A DNA stretch of 64,000 bases from assembly GCA_937958265.1 (NCBI GenBank), contig CALGNX010000025.1, positions 1-64,000 of the forward strand, read 5' to 3'. Made by a program: the position numbers and the translations under genes. The stretch comes from an uncultured Algibacter sp. (GTDB lineage: Bacteria > Bacteroidota > Bacteroidia > Flavobacteriales > Flavobacteriaceae). Under the pieces are notes generated by a model. It saw nothing but the letters and a program-made list of their open reading frames with translations, searched no databases and was not told the origin of the DNA. Of the stretch, positions 28,489 through 64,000 are shown piece after piece; positions within the stretch are counted from its first letter, which is position 1, and each line of letters starts with the position of its first letter.

Positions 28489-29571
28489 CTATCCATTAAT
28501 AACTTTCTCTTGATGATTAATAGACTCTTGGTGTATCGCTTTAAACATTCTTAAAACAAACTCCTCACTTAAACCGTGCTTTTCTCCTTCAATAACCATT
28601 TTTCCTAAAATCTCATTCCATCTCTTATTTTGTAAAACGGCAACATTTTTTGTTTTCTTAAGCGCCCCAATACTATCGGCAGACTTCATTCTTTTACCTA
28701 ATAACTCTAAAATTTGATTATCAACAACATCTATTTGTGCTCTTAATGTGTTTAATGTTTTGTTATAATCTTCTTCATTATTACCTTCTTTTCTAATTTT
28801 CAAATCTTTCATAATCTGAATTAGAGTTGCAGGTGTAACTTGTTGTGCAGCGTCACTCCAAGCATTTTCCGGATCGTAATGTGTCTCTATCATTAAACCA
28901 TCAAAATTCAAATCTAAGGCCTCTTGAGACACTTCCATAATCATATCGCGCTTTCCTGTAATATGAGAAGGATCGTTAATTAATGGGATATCTGGATATT
29001 TATTTTGAAATTCAATAGCCAATTGCCATTCCGGAGTATTACGGTATTTCGTTTTTGCATACGTAGAAAAACCTCTATGTATAGCTCCAATATTTTTAAC
29101 TCCAGATGTATAAATTCTTTCAATACCACCTAACCATAATGCTAAATCTGGATTTACTGGATTTTTAATTAAAACCGGCTTATCTGTACCTTTTAAAGCA
29201 TCTGCAATTTCCTGCATAATAAATGGCGAAACTGTAGATCGTGCACCAATCCAAAGCATATCAATATCATGCTCTAAAGCTAATTTTACATGCGCTGCGT
29301 TTGCAACCTCAGTACAAACCTTCATACCTGTCTCTGCCTTTACCTTCTGCAACCATTTTAAACCTAAAGCACCTACACCTTCAAACATACCAGGACGCGT
29401 TCTTGGTTTCCAAATCCCTGCTCTAAAATAACTAACATCGGTATCCTTCAATTCATGAGCAATTTTTAATACTTGCTCCTCTGTTTCTGCGCTACATGGC
29501 CCTGCAATTACTAAAGGATGATTTAAATTTAAATCATCTAACCAGGTTCTCATTTTTTTTGTGTTTTCCAT
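28489..29571 (-). CDS. Bifunctional DAHP synthase / chorismate mutase
   Basis: It joins the first committed step of the shikimate pathway (DAHP from PEP and erythrose-4-phosphate) to the chorismate-to-prephenate step. The N-terminal DAHP synthase of the KDO8P-synthase-like class spans about 1-255, with HPLVIAGPCSAETEEQV, FRAGIWKPRTRPG, LWIGARSTVSPF and INDPSHITGKRD. A C-terminal AroQ-type chorismate mutase helix bundle covers about 270-355 (LRAQIDVVDNQILELLGKRM, then LQNKRW). Fusion of these two domains is common in Bacteroidota and allows feedback through the mutase part. It is the last gene of the attenuated aromatic operon, 234 bases after tyrA and directly before a strong terminator. Confidence 0.95.
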   Translation of the reverse strand: MENTKKMRTWLDDLNLNHPLVIAGPCSAETEEQVLKIAHELKDTDVSYFRAGIWKPRTRPGMFEGVGALGLKWLQKVKAETGMKVCTEVANAAHVKLALEHDIDMLWIGARSTVSPFIMQEIADALKGTDKPVLIKNPVNPDLALWLGGIERIYTSGVKNIGAIHRGFSTYAKTKYRNTPEWQLAIEFQNKYPDIPLINDPSHITGKRDMIMEVSQEALDLNFDGLMIETHYDPENAWSDAAQQVTPATLIQIMKDLKIRKEGNNEEDYNKTLNTLRAQIDVVDNQILELLGKRMKSADSIGALKKTKNVAVLQNKRWNEILGKMVIEGEKHGLSEEFVLRMFKAIHQESINHQEKVING

Positions 29572-29805: not shown

Positions 29806-30657
29806 TTATATTAATCCTTTCAAAATATCTTTAATATGATTAGTATTCTTCATCTCGTTAAAGATTTCGGTGAAGTTATCACTTTTCATTAAATCTTTAA
29901 AATGGGTTAAATTATTTATATACTCTTCCAACGATTCCACAACATTAGTCTTGTTTTGCTCAAAAATAGGCGACCACATTGCTGGTGAACTTTTTGCCAA
30001 TCGCACGGTAGATGCAAATCCACTACCCGCCATATCAAAAATATCACGTTCATTTCTTTCTTTATCAATAACTGTTTTACCTAACATAAATGAGCTAATG
30101 TGTGACAAATGCGATACATAAGCAATATGCTTATCATGATCTTTAGGGTTCATGTAACGAATACGCATACCAATATCTGTAAATAATTTTAAGGCCTTTT
30201 CTTGTAATTTAAAGGTTGTTTTTTCCACCTCACAAACAATGTTCGTTTTATTATAAAACAAACCCGAAATAGCTGCTGTTGGCCCAGAATGCTCGGTTCC
30301 TGCAATAGGATGCATGGCTAAAAAATTTCTACGCTTTGGGTGGTCTTCAACCACTTTACAAATTGCCTCTTTCGTAGACCCTGCATCTACCACTAAGCCT
30401 GTTTCGGGTACCTTATCCAAAATGATTGGTAATAACTTCACGGTAGCATCAACAGGAATAGAAATAATTACCAAATCGGCATTTTCTAGATCGTCTAGAG
30501 TCGCTTTTTTATCAATTAATTTAAGTTCCAAAGCTTTATTAAGGGTTGCATCCTTCCTACTTATACCATGAATAACCATTTCTGGATTATGCTTTTTAAT
30601 ATCAATAGCAAGACTACCGCCTATTAAACCAACTCCAATACAATATACATTTTTCAT
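29806..30657 (-). CDS. tyrA: Prephenate dehydrogenase
   Basis: Oxidatively decarboxylates prephenate to 4-hydroxyphenylpyruvate for tyrosine synthesis. From the ATG at 30657 the 283-residue protein opens MKNVYCIGVGLIGGSLA, a Rossmann GxGxxG motif at the expected extreme N-terminus; the GTG at 30681 would add eight unsupported residues. AMHPIAGTEHSGP (about 115) is the substrate-binding signature, and HIAYVSHLSHISSFML fits the catalytic-His helix. There is no chorismate mutase domain; that activity is fused to the neighbouring DAHP synthase. It follows the aminotransferase by about 105 bases. Confidence 0.94.
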   Translation of the reverse strand: MKNVYCIGVGLIGGSLAIDIKKHNPEMVIHGISRKDATLNKALELKLIDKKATLDDLENADLVIISIPVDATVKLLPIILDKVPETGLVVDAGSTKEAICKVVEDHPKRRNFLAMHPIAGTEHSGPTAAISGLFYNKTNIVCEVEKTTFKLQEKALKLFTDIGMRIRYMNPKDHDKHIAYVSHLSHISSFMLGKTVIDKERNERDIFDMAGSGFASTVRLAKSSPAMWSPIFEQNKTNVVESLEEYINNLTHFKDLMKSDNFTEIFNEMKNTNHIKDILKGLI

Positions 30658-30762
30658 TACTTTCCTAAACCAGTTAAACACTTAAAGGTATTATACCGGG
30701 ACTTTTATTACTGTTCAAATTTATTTCAAACTACTACTGTGCCCAAAGACATAGCTACAAAC

Positions 30763-31908
30763 TTATTTAATACGAGCTATACATTCCTGTAAAGCTTTGG
30801 TGGTTGCGCATAGCGAAAACCTTATATACCCCTCTCCCTGAGTTCCAAATATAGTACCTGGTGTTATAAAAATATGATGTTGTTTAAGTACCTGATCTAT
30901 AAACGCCTCAGACTCTAAAAGTACAGGTAACTTTGCCCACACAAAAAGTCCTGTTGCCTCTTTATCATATGTGCATTGCAATGCATCGGCTAATTGCCAA
31001 ACTAAATCTCTGCGCTCCTTGTACACATCGTTAAGAGAAGCAAACCATATTTTTGAACATTTTAAGGCTTCGATTGCTCCTTGTTGTATACCATAGAACA
31101 TACCTGAGTCCATGTTACTTTTTACTTTTAAAATGTTATTAATATGCACTTGAGCCCCCATAACCATACCTACACGCCAACCTGCCATATTAAAGGTTTT
31201 GCTTAAAGAGTTTAACTCTAAACAAACGTCTTTTGCGCCATCTATACTTAAAATACTTTTAGGCGAATCGTTTAATATAAAACTATAAGGATTATCGTTT
31301 ACAATTAAAATTTGATGTTTTTTGCCAAACGCAACTAATTTTTCAAGCACACTTTTTATTGGTTTTGCTCCTGTTGGCATGTGGGGGTAATTAACCCACA
31401 TTAACTTTACCTTACTCAAATCTAACTGCTCTAGAGCTTCAAAATCGGGCATCCAATTATTAGCTTCATCCAAATTATAAAGTACACCTTTAGCGCCTAC
31501 TAATTTTGTTACAGATTGGTAGGTTGGGTATCCAGGGTTTGGAATTAAAACGGTATCGCCAGCGTTTAAATAGGCCATAGAAATATGCATAATCCCTTCC
31601 TTGCTTCCCATTAACGGCAAAACTTCTGTGCTAGCACATAAATTTACATCGAAATGTGTTTTGTAAAAACCTGAAATAGCTTCTCTTAACTCTGGAATAC
31701 CTTGGTAACTTTGATATTTATGAGCTTGGGGCTTATCGAAACTTGCCGAAATAGCAGATAAGACCGCTTTAGGTGGTTGCATATCTGGGCTGCCAATACC
31801 TAAATTAATAATAGGGTTTCCATCTGCTATAAGCGCATTTACTTCTCTTAATTTTTTCGAAAAATAGTACTCTTCAACGGTTTGTAATCTATTAGCTGCC
31901 TCAATCAT
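30763..31908 (-). CDS. PLP-dependent aminotransferase of the aromatic operon
   Basis: A 381-residue fold-type I class I/II aminotransferase. The PLP lysine lies in ELNSLSKTFNMAGWRVG (about residue 233), with the Asn/Asp of VNDNPYSFIL and the carboxylate-binding Arg of YIRFSLC. Position between pheA and tyrA suggests it transaminates phenylpyruvate and 4-hydroxyphenylpyruvate (or prephenate) to the amino acids. Its start overlaps the pheA stop by four bases, so the two are coupled. Exact substrate cannot be read from the sequence. Confidence 0.9.
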   Translation of the reverse strand: MIEAANRLQTVEEYYFSKKLREVNALIADGNPIINLGIGSPDMQPPKAVLSAISASFDKPQAHKYQSYQGIPELREAISGFYKTHFDVNLCASTEVLPLMGSKEGIMHISMAYLNAGDTVLIPNPGYPTYQSVTKLVGAKGVLYNLDEANNWMPDFEALEQLDLSKVKLMWVNYPHMPTGAKPIKSVLEKLVAFGKKHQILIVNDNPYSFILNDSPKSILSIDGAKDVCLELNSLSKTFNMAGWRVGMVMGAQVHINNILKVKSNMDSGMFYGIQQGAIEALKCSKIWFASLNDVYKERRDLVWQLADALQCTYDKEATGLFVWAKLPVLLESEAFIDQVLKQHHIFITPGTIFGTQGEGYIRFSLCATTKALQECIARIK

Positions 31909-32726
31909 AACTTTGCATTTTTATATTCGCCTAATACTTTAAACTCTGTAGCCATAATTTCCAATATGGATTTTGCTTTTTTATAATCCTCGACATTATC
32001 AAAAGTAACATCCACAAAAAAAGCGTATTTCCAAAGAGTTTCAATTACTGGTAGCGATTGTATTTTAGTTAAATTCATTTTACAATCACTCAAAACATTT
32101 AAAACAGCTGCTAAACTACCCCGTTTATGGTCCAATTGAAACTTTAATGATGCCTTGTTTATTTGGTTATTATTAGGCCGTTCGGTTTGGAGAATAACAA
32201 ACCGTGTCGAGTTATCTTTCATGGTTTGTATATCGTCTTCGATAATTTCTAACTCAAAAATTTCTGAAGCTATTTTTGGAGCTATAGCAGCAACGCCTTT
32301 TAATTTATTTTTAGCAATGCGCTTGGCTACCTCTGCCGTATCTACATCTTCAATTAATTTAATATCTGGATATTTTTTAAAGAATGCTTTACACTGCAAT
32401 AATGCCATAGGATGAGAGCAAACTTCCTTAATATCTTCTATTGTCTGATTTGGTAACGCCATTAAGTGATGGTGAATATTTAAATAACGTTCACCACAAA
32501 TATGTAAATTATTACTATCAATTAAAGCATAATTAGGAATTATAGAACCCGCTATAGTATTCTCTAAAGCCATTACCGCTTGGTTGGATTGTTTATTTAA
32601 TAAACTTTCAACCAAACCATCAAAAGACATACATTCCTTTAACAATATGTTGTTACCATAATAGTCGCGAGCAACTTTATGGTGGTTTGAGCCTTTGGCT
32701 CCTTGTATCGCTATTGTTTTAATCAA
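31905..32726 (-). CDS. pheA: Prephenate dehydratase
   Basis: Converts prephenate to phenylpyruvate. The 273 residues comprise a periplasmic-binding-like catalytic domain (GAKGSNHHKVARDYYG, ALENTIAGSIIPNY, and the catalytic Thr in KDNSTRFVIL, about 175) and a C-terminal ACT domain (KRGSLAAVLNVLSDCKMNLTK, then IQSLPV in place of the ESRP effector motif of enterobacterial PheA). There is no mutase domain. It is the first structural gene of the operon and sits directly behind the leader peptide and attenuator at 32773-32911. Confidence 0.94.
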   Translation of the reverse strand: MIKTIAIQGAKGSNHHKVARDYYGNNILLKECMSFDGLVESLLNKQSNQAVMALENTIAGSIIPNYALIDSNNLHICGERYLNIHHHLMALPNQTIEDIKEVCSHPMALLQCKAFFKKYPDIKLIEDVDTAEVAKRIAKNKLKGVAAIAPKIASEIFELEIIEDDIQTMKDNSTRFVILQTERPNNNQINKASLKFQLDHKRGSLAAVLNVLSDCKMNLTKIQSLPVIETLWKYAFFVDVTFDNVEDYKKAKSILEIMATEFKVLGEYKNAKL

Positions 32727-32772: not shown

Positions 32773-32805
32773 AAAAATAAAAAAGTCTCGATTTTCATCG
32801 AGACT
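32773..32805 (-). terminator. Attenuator terminator upstream of pheA
   Basis: On the minus strand AGTCTCGAT-GAAA-ATCGAGACT forms a perfect 9-bp hairpin (32805-32784) followed by TTTTTTATTTTT. It lies 29 bases after the leader-peptide stop and 47 bases before the pheA start, so it must be bypassed for pheA expression. Confidence 0.9.
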
Positions 32806-32833
32806 CCTACTTTATTTAATTTATAATTATAAA

Positions 32834-32911
32834 TTATACATATAGCGTCTCGCTCTTCTTGCTAAAAAAGAAATAAAACCAGTTGCTAAAATATGAATAA
32901 CTCTTTGTCAT
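32834..32911 (-). CDS. Aromatic-rich leader peptide of the pheA operon
   Basis: A 25-codon frame, ATG at 32911 to TAA at 32836-32834. Residues 4-17 read SYSYFSNWFYFFFS; overall there are five Phe, four Tyr and one Trp among 25 residues, with the run of Trp, Phe and Tyr codons at 11-16. This composition matches regulatory leader peptides of aromatic amino acid operons and is very unlikely for a random frame placed directly before a terminator. A near-consensus -7 box (TACTTTTA, 32935-32928) lies 16 bases upstream, which would give a very short 5' leader. No Shine-Dalgarno sequence is evident, as is common in Bacteroidota. Confidence 0.85.
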   Translation of the reverse strand: MTKSYSYFSNWFYFFFSKKSETLYV

Positions 32912-33038
32912 TGTGATTATTGAATTGTAAAAGTAATTATTATTTCAAGAAATAGAAATAGAAACATCTATTATTTTTATTTTTATTAAAAATTTTAAAG
33001 AATTTCTAGTAAACATCGCATTACGTTAGATAATCATT

Positions 33039-33962: not shown

Positions 33963-34001
33963 CTTTTTAATTAGCGTAAAACCAAATTCCCCAACGGATT
34001 A

Positions 34002-34094
34002 CGCGTTAGGGATTGCAGTGTAAAGCCCACAGCCCGACCTTAGGAGGTGCGCGGACTTGTAACGTAAAGCCCGACCCTTGTGGTAACGCCCAAA
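34002..34094 (-). repeat. Interspersed repeat family, copy C
   Basis: Read on the minus strand: TTTGGGCGTTACCACAAGGG, TCGGGCTTTACGTTAC, AAGTCCGCGCACCTCC, GTCGGGCTGTGGGCTTT, then CAATCCCTAACGCG. The outer GCGTTA and TAACGC are complementary. It lies between gldA and pta, antisense to both genes. Confidence 0.88.
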
Positions 34095-62691: not shown

Positions 62692-64000
62692 TTAGTTATG
62701 CTTGGATAATCTTAAAATATCTCCAAAAACACCACGCGCAGTAACCTCTGCACCAGCGCCAGCGCCCTGTATAACTATGGGCTGCTCGCCATAACTCTGT
62801 GTAAATATTTCAAAAATAGCATCGCTTCCTTTTACATGGCCTAGAGTACTATCCTCTAAAACAGAAACTAACTTCACCTCTAAGCGCCCTTTATCTTTTG
62901 ATAAATCACCAGATAAATCGCCAACATAACGTAAAACATGCCCCGCCTTTTGCTTCACTTTTATGGCCTCGTAATGCGCATCCAACACTTCTAATTGAGA
63001 TAAAAATGAATCTACCGAAATGTTTCTATATGCCTTAGGAATTAAATTAAGTACTTCTACATCTTCAAATTCATTTTTTAAATCCAACTCCCTTGCTAAA
63101 ATTAAAAGTTTTCTTGCCACATCATTTCCAGAAAAATCCTCGCGTGGGTCTGGCTCCGTAAATCCTTTATCAACCGTTTCTTTAATAATTGCACTAAACG
63201 GTTTATCAGTTTTGGAAAAATTATTAAACAAATAACTTAATGTTCCAGAAAACACACCACGTATTCTAGTAATATTTTCTCCAGATTCATGTAATAACTT
63301 TATCGTATCAATTAAAGGCAATCCCGCTCCTACGGTTGTTTCGTATAAATAAGTTTTATTATTTTCTTGTAACGCCACGCGCAATTCCTTATAAAATTTA
63401 TGAGAAATTGTATTTGCAATTTTATTAGACGATACTAAATCAAAACCCGCTTTTACCATTGGTATGTAATTGGTATGAAAAAGTGAACTCGCAGTATTAT
63501 CTACTGCTACTAAATTCTCTAAATGATGATTTTTAGCATATCTTATAATAGTATTTACTGTATCTTCTTGGATATTATCGTTTTTCTTCACAGCAGTTTC
63601 CCACTGTGTATCTGCTCCATTTTTATCCAACCACAATTTTTTGGAATTTGCAATGGCAAAAATATTTAAACTAATACCTTTTCGTTTTTCAATATCGCTT
63701 TTAGACTTTAAAATTTGGTTTATTAAAGCCCTACCAACGCCACCGTGACCAAAAATAGCTAAGTTTATTTTTTTAGAAACACCAAAAATCTCACCATGTA
63801 CAACGTTTACCGCTTTATGTAACTCTGATTTATTAACCACTAAACTTACATTTTTACCAGTTACTGTATTATTAAAAAGTAACGGTGTAATTTGGTTTTT
63901 TATAAGCGCATTAAAAGGCTTATGAAAAGCACTTAATTCAATACCAATAATCGAGATTACGGCAACATCATTATTAACATCAATTTTATTAACATCTTGC
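62692..64000 (-). CDS. thrA: Aspartokinase/homoserine dehydrogenase, N-terminal part beyond window
   Basis: The frame is open from the stop at 62692 to the window edge (436 codons visible), so the start lies outside. The first visible 60 residues (VAVISIIGIEL, LFNNTVTGKNVSLVVNKSE) look like the ACT domain that joins aspartokinase to homoserine dehydrogenase in ThrA/MetL proteins. The homoserine dehydrogenase part follows: NLAIFGHGGVGRALINQIL (NAD-binding), TVGAGLPLIDTIKLLHESGE, GVFSGTLSYLFNNF and GFTEPDPREDFSGNDVARKLLILAR. It makes homoserine for threonine and, via metZ, methionine. A GTG at 63840 would start a monofunctional form, but the upstream homology argues against it. Confidence 0.9.
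   Translation of the reverse strand, partial: QDVNKIDVNNDVAVISIIGIELSAFHKPFNALIKNQITPLLFNNTVTGKNVSLVVNKSELHKAVNVVHGEIFGVSKKINLAIFGHGGVGRALINQILKSKSDIEKRKGISLNIFAIANSKKLWLDKNGADTQWETAVKKNDNIQEDTVNTIIRYAKNHHLENLVAVDNTASSLFHTNYIPMVKAGFDLVSSNKIANTISHKFYKELRVALQENNKTYLYETTVGAGLPLIDTIKLLHESGENITRIRGVFSGTLSYLFNNFSKTDKPFSAIIKETVDKGFTEPDPREDFSGNDVARKLLILARELDLKNEFEDVEVLNLIPKAYRNISVDSFLSQLEVLDAHYEAIKVKQKAGHVLRYVGDLSGDLSKDKGRLEVKLVSVLEDSTLGHVKGSDAIFEIFTQSYGEQPIVIQGAGAGAEVTARGVFGDILRLSKHN

Follow-up and report, generated by a model that had tools for sequence, protein, structure and literature searches.

The DNA upstream of pheA in this uncultured Algibacter genome very probably carries a ribosome-mediated transcription attenuator that senses phenylalanine and tyrosine. 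Comparison with related genomes supports its parts at the level of sequence: the leader, the terminator, an alternative pairing that covaries, the spacing, and the operon downstream. From these parts we infer that the leader is translated, that ribosomes stall within it, and that stalling controls read-through. The element is genuine and well conserved, and it has been noted in part before.

In the window, by which we mean the whole stretch of 64,000 nucleotides that was analysed, the element lies on the minus strand. The leader ORF MTKSYSYFSNWFYFFFSKKSETLYV (32834-32911) opens with an ATG at 32911 and closes with a TAA stop at 32836-32834; according to its translation, 10 of the 25 codons are aromatic, and the putative control codons Trp11-Phe12-Tyr13-Phe14-Phe15-Phe16 occupy 32864-32881. 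Codons 20-22 contain CGAGAC (region 2, 32847-32852), the 5' strand of the predicted antiterminator, which is complementary to GTCTCG at 32799-32804 (region 3), the core of the terminator 5' arm that is common to both predicted structures. The intrinsic terminator, formed by region 3 with region 4, spans 32808-32781 and has 12 pairs and a loop of 4, followed by TTATTTTTAC and a T-rich tail to about 32773; the core of region 4 is the CGAGAC of the 3' arm at 32790-32785. A perfect 20-bp AT palindrome (32817-32836) covers the leader stop. A sequence-only reading of this DNA had described the 25-codon frame with its ten aromatic residues, the hairpin and T-run before pheA, the complementarity of CGAGAC and GTCTCG, and the palindrome, and all four are present as described. 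The fold of 32773-32926 as a whole has a z-score of -3.76.

Domain matches downstream of the hairpin, also on the minus strand, give the gene series named by that reading. Prephenate dehydratase, pheA, has a TTG start (31905-32726; PF00800, 1.3e-49) and is followed by a class I/II aminotransferase (30763-31908; PF00155), the prephenate dehydrogenase tyrA (29806-30681; PF02153/PF20463), whose start is uncertain (GTG at 30681 or a later codon), and a fusion of DAHP synthase and chorismate mutase (28489-29571; PF00793/PF01817). The order pheA-aminotransferase-tyrA-aroF is kept, and with it genes for both Phe and Tyr synthesis, in 78 of the 80 named loci, which were retained as the best of 574 relatives and are not an even sample; in the remaining 2 the locus ends before the gene order is complete. 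The upstream neighbour of the element in the window is a divergent ABC transporter ATPase gene.

We searched for PheA in the genus, where all 10 genomes, the window's own included, have it, in a named collection, and in 159 genomes of the family, 146 of which have PheA; the upstream DNA of these 146 was scanned for the element, defined as a leader in which 12 residues include 7 or more aromatics, together with a terminator. The sequence-only reading had proposed looking for a conserved aromatic-rich leader in relatives, and such a leader with a terminator precedes pheA in 143 of the 146 genomes, as well as in all 80 of the named loci (the best 80 of 574 relatives). Three family loci miss it (L250, L266 and L256), and the contig of L256 offers only 406 nt upstream. 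When the order and class samples are included, an ATG leader, a short ORF with codons for the operon's products, together with an intrinsic terminator between it and the first gene, occurs in 252 of 291 upstream regions. The reverse strand of these regions yields it in 1 of 291, and dinucleotide shuffles in 1 of 1455. These counts show that the combination of leader and terminator before pheA is beyond chance.

The frequency of the element thins beyond the family. It was found in none of the 10 loci scanned in a family with small genomes (f15) and in none of the 6 scanned in a family whose PheA is 31-35% alike (f4). Among the 24 loci of the class sample, one of which belongs to f4, 8 reach the threshold of 7 aromatics in 12 and 11 reach 6 in 12. 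On visual inspection, some loci scored as misses (L132, L133 and L154) show a leader and hairpin of weaker form.

These controls bear on whether the hairpin might do no more than terminate an antisense transcript or one from upstream, with the aromatic ORF as a by-product of T-rich DNA. The region is AT-rich and codons for Phe and Tyr are T-rich; by loose criteria, the hairpin is also terminator-like on the plus strand; and a terminator consensus scan, which is not telling alone, gives 5 sites in 6.5 kb, hardly above the 4.0 in shuffles. Shuffles and the reverse strand nevertheless fail to yield a leader with a terminator, and the upstream neighbour is divergent, so that no transcript from it needs ending at the hairpin. 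A plain terminator also leaves two further observations, described below, to one side: a segment of the leader covaries with the 5' arm, and Phe and Tyr interchange while the array stays aromatic. We consider this explanation barely credible.

For the pairing between region 2 and the 5' arm, we used the regions that have an ATG leader and terminator, omitting 39 of the 291; of the 252 kept, 7 duplicated another locus in both region 2 and the 5' arm and were removed, which left 245 loci. The core of the 5' arm is GTCTC in 150 of these and GTCCC, GTTCC, GTCCT, ATCCC, ATCCT, ACCCG, and others in the rest. Region 2 forms a Watson-Crick run of at least 5 with its 5' arm in 182 of 245 loci; when the arms are permuted among loci, 87 of 245 pair (sd 6, maximum 105 in 500 permutations). 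Among the 95 loci with an unusual arm, one that is not GTCTC, the Watson-Crick measure finds pairing to the locus's own arm in 69 and to the common arm in 3. If G-U pairs are allowed, 238 of 245 loci pair, compared with 173 after permutation (sd 4, maximum 187), and the contrast in the 95 unusual loci is smaller, with 89 pairing to their own arm and 85 to the common one. Duplex energies agree with the strict Watson-Crick count: the mean for region 2 with the 5' arm is -10.8, against -4.9 with shuffled region 2 (p ≤ 0.05 in 91% of loci) and -8.1 (sd 0.13) with permuted arms.

Counts in fixed alignment columns show no covariation of the 2:3 helix above shuffles, with 65.5% paired in 40 sequences against 64.6%, and give poor pairing in the 95 unusual rows when all 245 are counted. 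Because region 2 sits at slightly differing distances, its register slipping by about 1 base, we read these counts as speaking neither for nor against the helix, and we replaced them with tests in which the permuted control has equal freedom. The terminator itself covaries, with both sides changed in 7 of its 9 pairs among 40 diverse sequences. Covariation in the two hairpins was the other check that the sequence-only reading had proposed, and the tests with permuted arms bear it out for the alternative pairing; together with the conserved leader, the covarying pairing supports the layout of ribosome-mediated attenuation that it had suggested. The duplex, permutation, and Watson-Crick tests all point to an antiterminator in which the end of the leader pairs to the exclusion of the terminator, as in attenuators of the pheL/trpL kind.

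Two further structures fared less well. A hairpin of region 1 with region 2, a pause or protector structure known from the enterobacterial trp operon and inessential to the mechanism, was dropped: its pairing energy, taken between region 2 and the upstream leader, is hardly better than in shuffles (-5.5 vs -4.6), with p ≤ 0.05 in 18% of loci. The AT palindrome had been read as an element separating the leader segment from the terminator; it is there in the window, and as a conserved hairpin of its own it is weak, with a mean z of -0.6 over the 244 spacers scored (1 of 245 was dropped because the stretch was too short). In the fold of this locus the palindrome forms the tip of the predicted antiterminator. 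That fold, computed without the 5' part of the leader and most of region 4, has an energy of -15.4 kcal/mol and a z-score of -3.1, and 2 of 200 shuffles are as good.

The geometry is what would be expected of a stalling ribosome. Region 2, whose bounds come from RNAduplex and may be off by one, starts 7-11 nt past the last aromatic codon (5th-95th percentile, median 9); in the window it starts 11 nt past, and relative to the leader stop it starts from about -22 to +1 across loci. Given the size of its footprint, a ribosome whose A site holds the last aromatic codon would extend about that far past the codon. A stall anywhere in the array would therefore keep region 2 available for pairing, and region 2 would be covered once the ribosome stood at the stop codon.

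In the mechanism that we propose, the leader ORF would be the first part to be transcribed and translated. At low levels of charged tRNA-Phe or tRNA-Tyr, the ribosome would stall in the array of aromatic codons with its leading edge halted just before region 2; free region 2 would pair with region 3 to form the antiterminator, and RNA polymerase would continue into pheA-aminotransferase-tyrA-DAHP synthase. With an ample supply, the ribosome would reach the leader stop and cover region 2, leaving region 3 to pair with region 4, and transcription would end at the T-run. Promoter-like boxes are the basis for a candidate placement of the leader early in the transcript. In the window, the candidate -7 box TACTTTTA (32928-32935, minus strand) lies 16 nt before the leader ATG and agrees with TAnnTTTG at 7 of 8 positions, so it is not an exact match. 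Among 243 loci (2 of the 245 were dropped because the stretch was too short), 84 have an exact TAnnTTTG between -70 and -15 of the leader ATG, and the bins from -40 to -21 hold 72 occurrences compared with about 6 in shuffles. This motif has been reported for sigmaA (PMC9723704, PMC7366714), and these bacteria are reported to be without Shine-Dalgarno sequences (PMC9723704).

The codons of the leader point to the amino acids that would be sensed. In the 245 loci, which were preselected for at least 7 aromatics in 12 and differ in region 2 or the 5' arm, every leader has both Phe and Tyr (means 5.4 and 3.5). The residue before the last aromatic is Phe, Tyr, or Trp in 242 of 245, and the one further back in 244 of 245; Phe and Tyr interchange at positions of the array, which remains aromatic. 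Trp is present in 167 leaders and absent from 78, which rules it out as a conserved part of the sensor. Because Trp is absent from these 78 of 245 leaders and the operon makes Phe and Tyr, the sensor narrows to these two and is most likely Phe plus Tyr, with Trp dispensable. The mixed sensor of Phe, Tyr, and Trp codons proposed from the window thus holds for the first two amino acids and fails for the third.

The same leaders speak to whether arrest by the nascent peptide, as in TnaC, or coupling of translation might act in place of stalling at codons. Some residues near the array do recur within clades (WQG, NWF, WNG), but the peptide beyond the aromatic array varies between clades. Moreover, Phe and Tyr interchange and, as described below, become Trp along with the pathway, and the two hairpins, which exclude each other, have a design suited to controlling transcription. 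Arrest or coupling is thus a very improbable substitute for the codon-stalling attenuator.

We also asked whether a different sensor, such as a metabolite riboswitch, a T-box, or an RNA-binding protein, could act on the same terminator with the ORF being incidental. Such switches control amino acid genes elsewhere. No Rfam family, T-box and riboswitch families included, matches the window at its gathering score, and in a search of 8 pheA loci at E ≤ 1 none reaches gathering at the element; the matches touching the hairpin region there are at chance level (MicC in L043, 32.9 of 90 bits; BSnc120 in L157, on the other strand, 22.7 of 114). The upstream regions show little conservation apart from the terminator, region 2, and the codons of the leader, and the spacing follows the last aromatic codon. 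We give this possibility very little weight compared with a ribosome-mediated attenuator.

A search for the element itself was made with a model, R1, of 40 of its sequences, run on 60 family genomes. Strong matches (E ≤ 3.8e-6) occur in 52 of 53 PheA-bearing genomes, some of which, like the window, contributed sequences to the training set; one genome (G029) has none. All 52 lie at the place upstream of pheA when coordinates are compared by eye. In the window's own genome there is one strong match, the window element, which scores 75.5 bits as a member of the training set, and the next match scores 34.0. Five weaker matches inspected in this genome (L352-L355 and L357, at most 34 bits) have no aromatic leader; to the eye, they resemble the ends of genes with their terminators. 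A further seven weaker matches, in other genomes (L345-L351), include one from another genome of the family, L346, with a Thr/Ile-rich leader MRQSNITTTIITSIP and a terminator before a gene that by eye is thrA-like.

Relatives without PheA suggest how the sensor may change. The change from Phe/Tyr to Trp codons where pheA is absent would be a natural experiment on sensor specificity, and this apparent rewriting is the part of the work most worth following. From the 13 family genomes without a PheA match we took the DNA upstream of DAHP synthase; 11 regions could be assessed, since G059 has only a distant DAHP synthase relative and the G108 locus is without its upstream side. In 6 of the 11 (G077, G072, G033, G073, G057, and G039), an ORF that starts with ATG and contains Trp-Trp precedes a terminator; this combination occurs in 0 of 2200 shuffles and 0 of 11 on the reverse strand, and Trp-Trp is absent from all 252 pheA leaders. 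In G094, a leader with a single Trp and a terminator precedes DAHP synthase; G091, G047, G048, and G056 have no such leader before this gene. The G039 leader MTNNNTWWSNSKFYLKR, which precedes a DAHP synthase-chorismate mutase gene, is matched by R1 (E 1.2e-6), which detects the other Trp-Trp leaders poorly. The aminotransferase and tyrA genes do not adjoin the site in these genomes, and the 1.5 kb fetched contains no tyrA.

The site upstream of DAHP synthase appears to be orthologous to that upstream of pheA, given that the neighbouring gene, again divergent, is related to the ABC gene of the window (56-78% identity) in 10 of the 11 regions, including 5 of the 6 with Trp-Trp. Such a neighbour occurs at only 14 of the 80 named pheA loci (the best 80 of 574 relatives), so the arrangement is not general. 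After the leader, four Trp-type loci have GGGATTATTGT, which resembles the GGGACTGTTGT seen in many pheA leaders. For the seven Trp-type loci, pairing to the 5' arm gives a shuffle p of at most 0.05 in four, 0.053 in a fifth, 0.157 in L363, and 0.37 in L361. The spacing is unlike that of the pheA leaders: in 6 of the 7, the paired segment sits 3-9 nt downstream of the stop codon's first base, at a distance of 23-31 nt from the last Trp.

A third type of leader is found in G048, also a genome with no PheA match. There, a leader with four Tyr residues, MKNLNNTYYYYPILTRRIGQ, and a terminator (L344 496-627; R1 E 4.1e-5) precede a gene for a biopterin-dependent aromatic amino acid hydroxylase (PF00351, 9.3e-44). 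Taking these loci together, we lean, with some reserve, toward the view that evolution has rewritten the sensor of the attenuator to match the products still made through the operon, and that the Phe/Tyr leaders, the Trp leaders, and the Tyr4 hydroxylase leader would form a natural series of codon-retuned attenuators.

The window PheA (31905-32726) has a history of its own. It clusters with PheA of Tenacibaculum and Polaribacter on a starred branch (100/99; compared L002, L012-L014, L091, and L092), apart from PheA of 8 of 9 other genomes of its genus, to which it is 63-66% identical; identity to the ninth is 86-87%. The window leader peptide is of the congeneric type, unlike its PheA. In this organism, pheA has apparently been replaced behind a retained leader.

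The enterobacterial pheA (pheL) and trp leaders combine a leader of product codons, mutually exclusive antiterminator and terminator, and an amino acid operon downstream. The element described here is like them in its short product-rich leader, its exclusive hairpins, and the operon that follows. It differs in that its sensor mixes Phe and Tyr and its operon makes both, and in having no support for a 1:2 hairpin, no Rfam match, and promoter boxes of the TAnnTTTG type. A comparative study of attenuation by Lopatovskaya in 2010 may contain the element.

Among published work, structured 5' regions were described in Flavobacterium psychrophilum, along with strong indications that leader peptides attenuate amino acid operons and with 5' elements before pheA and hisG that also occur in other genera of the Flavobacteriaceae and have no Rfam match (Guerin 2021, PMC9723704). 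The pheA element in that study is very probably the same as ours, and its existence has therefore already been noted. In the literature searched, we found no description of the element's anatomy, peptide, pairing, spread, or codon changes. The sequence-only reading knew of no description in Flavobacteriaceae; a pheA 5' element with clues to a leader peptide was already in print. The Bacteroid-trp RNA (RF01692; Weinberg 2010, PMC2864571; PMC6414381) is likewise a leader RNA of Bacteroidetes, but it concerns Trp only and trp operons, and it does not match at the pheA element. Also similar is the uORFC-13-1 motif, with 24 examples before aroF, in which a uORF with at least one Phe codon adjoins a terminator before a DAHP synthase gene (PMC8632094). 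If our reading is right, codon-stalling attenuation with a sensor for Phe plus Tyr would extend to nearly the whole family and to parts of the class, and the leader codons would offer a readable hint of what an operon produces.

The window's own genome holds other leaders. Before trpE (L322 1277-1400, contig C22), the leader MNRFLNNTWWWCFRN contains WWW and is matched by Bacteroid-trp RF01692 with 51.3 bits (gathering 49). Before hisG (L324, contig C1, about 4.7 kb), the leader MTFIQLHHHHFYIGSQAN contains HHHH and is followed by a terminator in the layout of the pheA element, with a pairing p of 0.06; no Rfam family matches this leader. Elsewhere in the window, at 62713-63318, a long frame holds one of the genome's two matches to a homoserine dehydrogenase domain (PF00742). 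Sub-threshold matches to Flavo-1 (gathering 42) also occur in this genome, at L001 3590-3673 (about 33997-34080 in the window; 30.3 bits) and L326 1241-1323 (29.6 bits), and there are two full Flavo-1 matches in L126.
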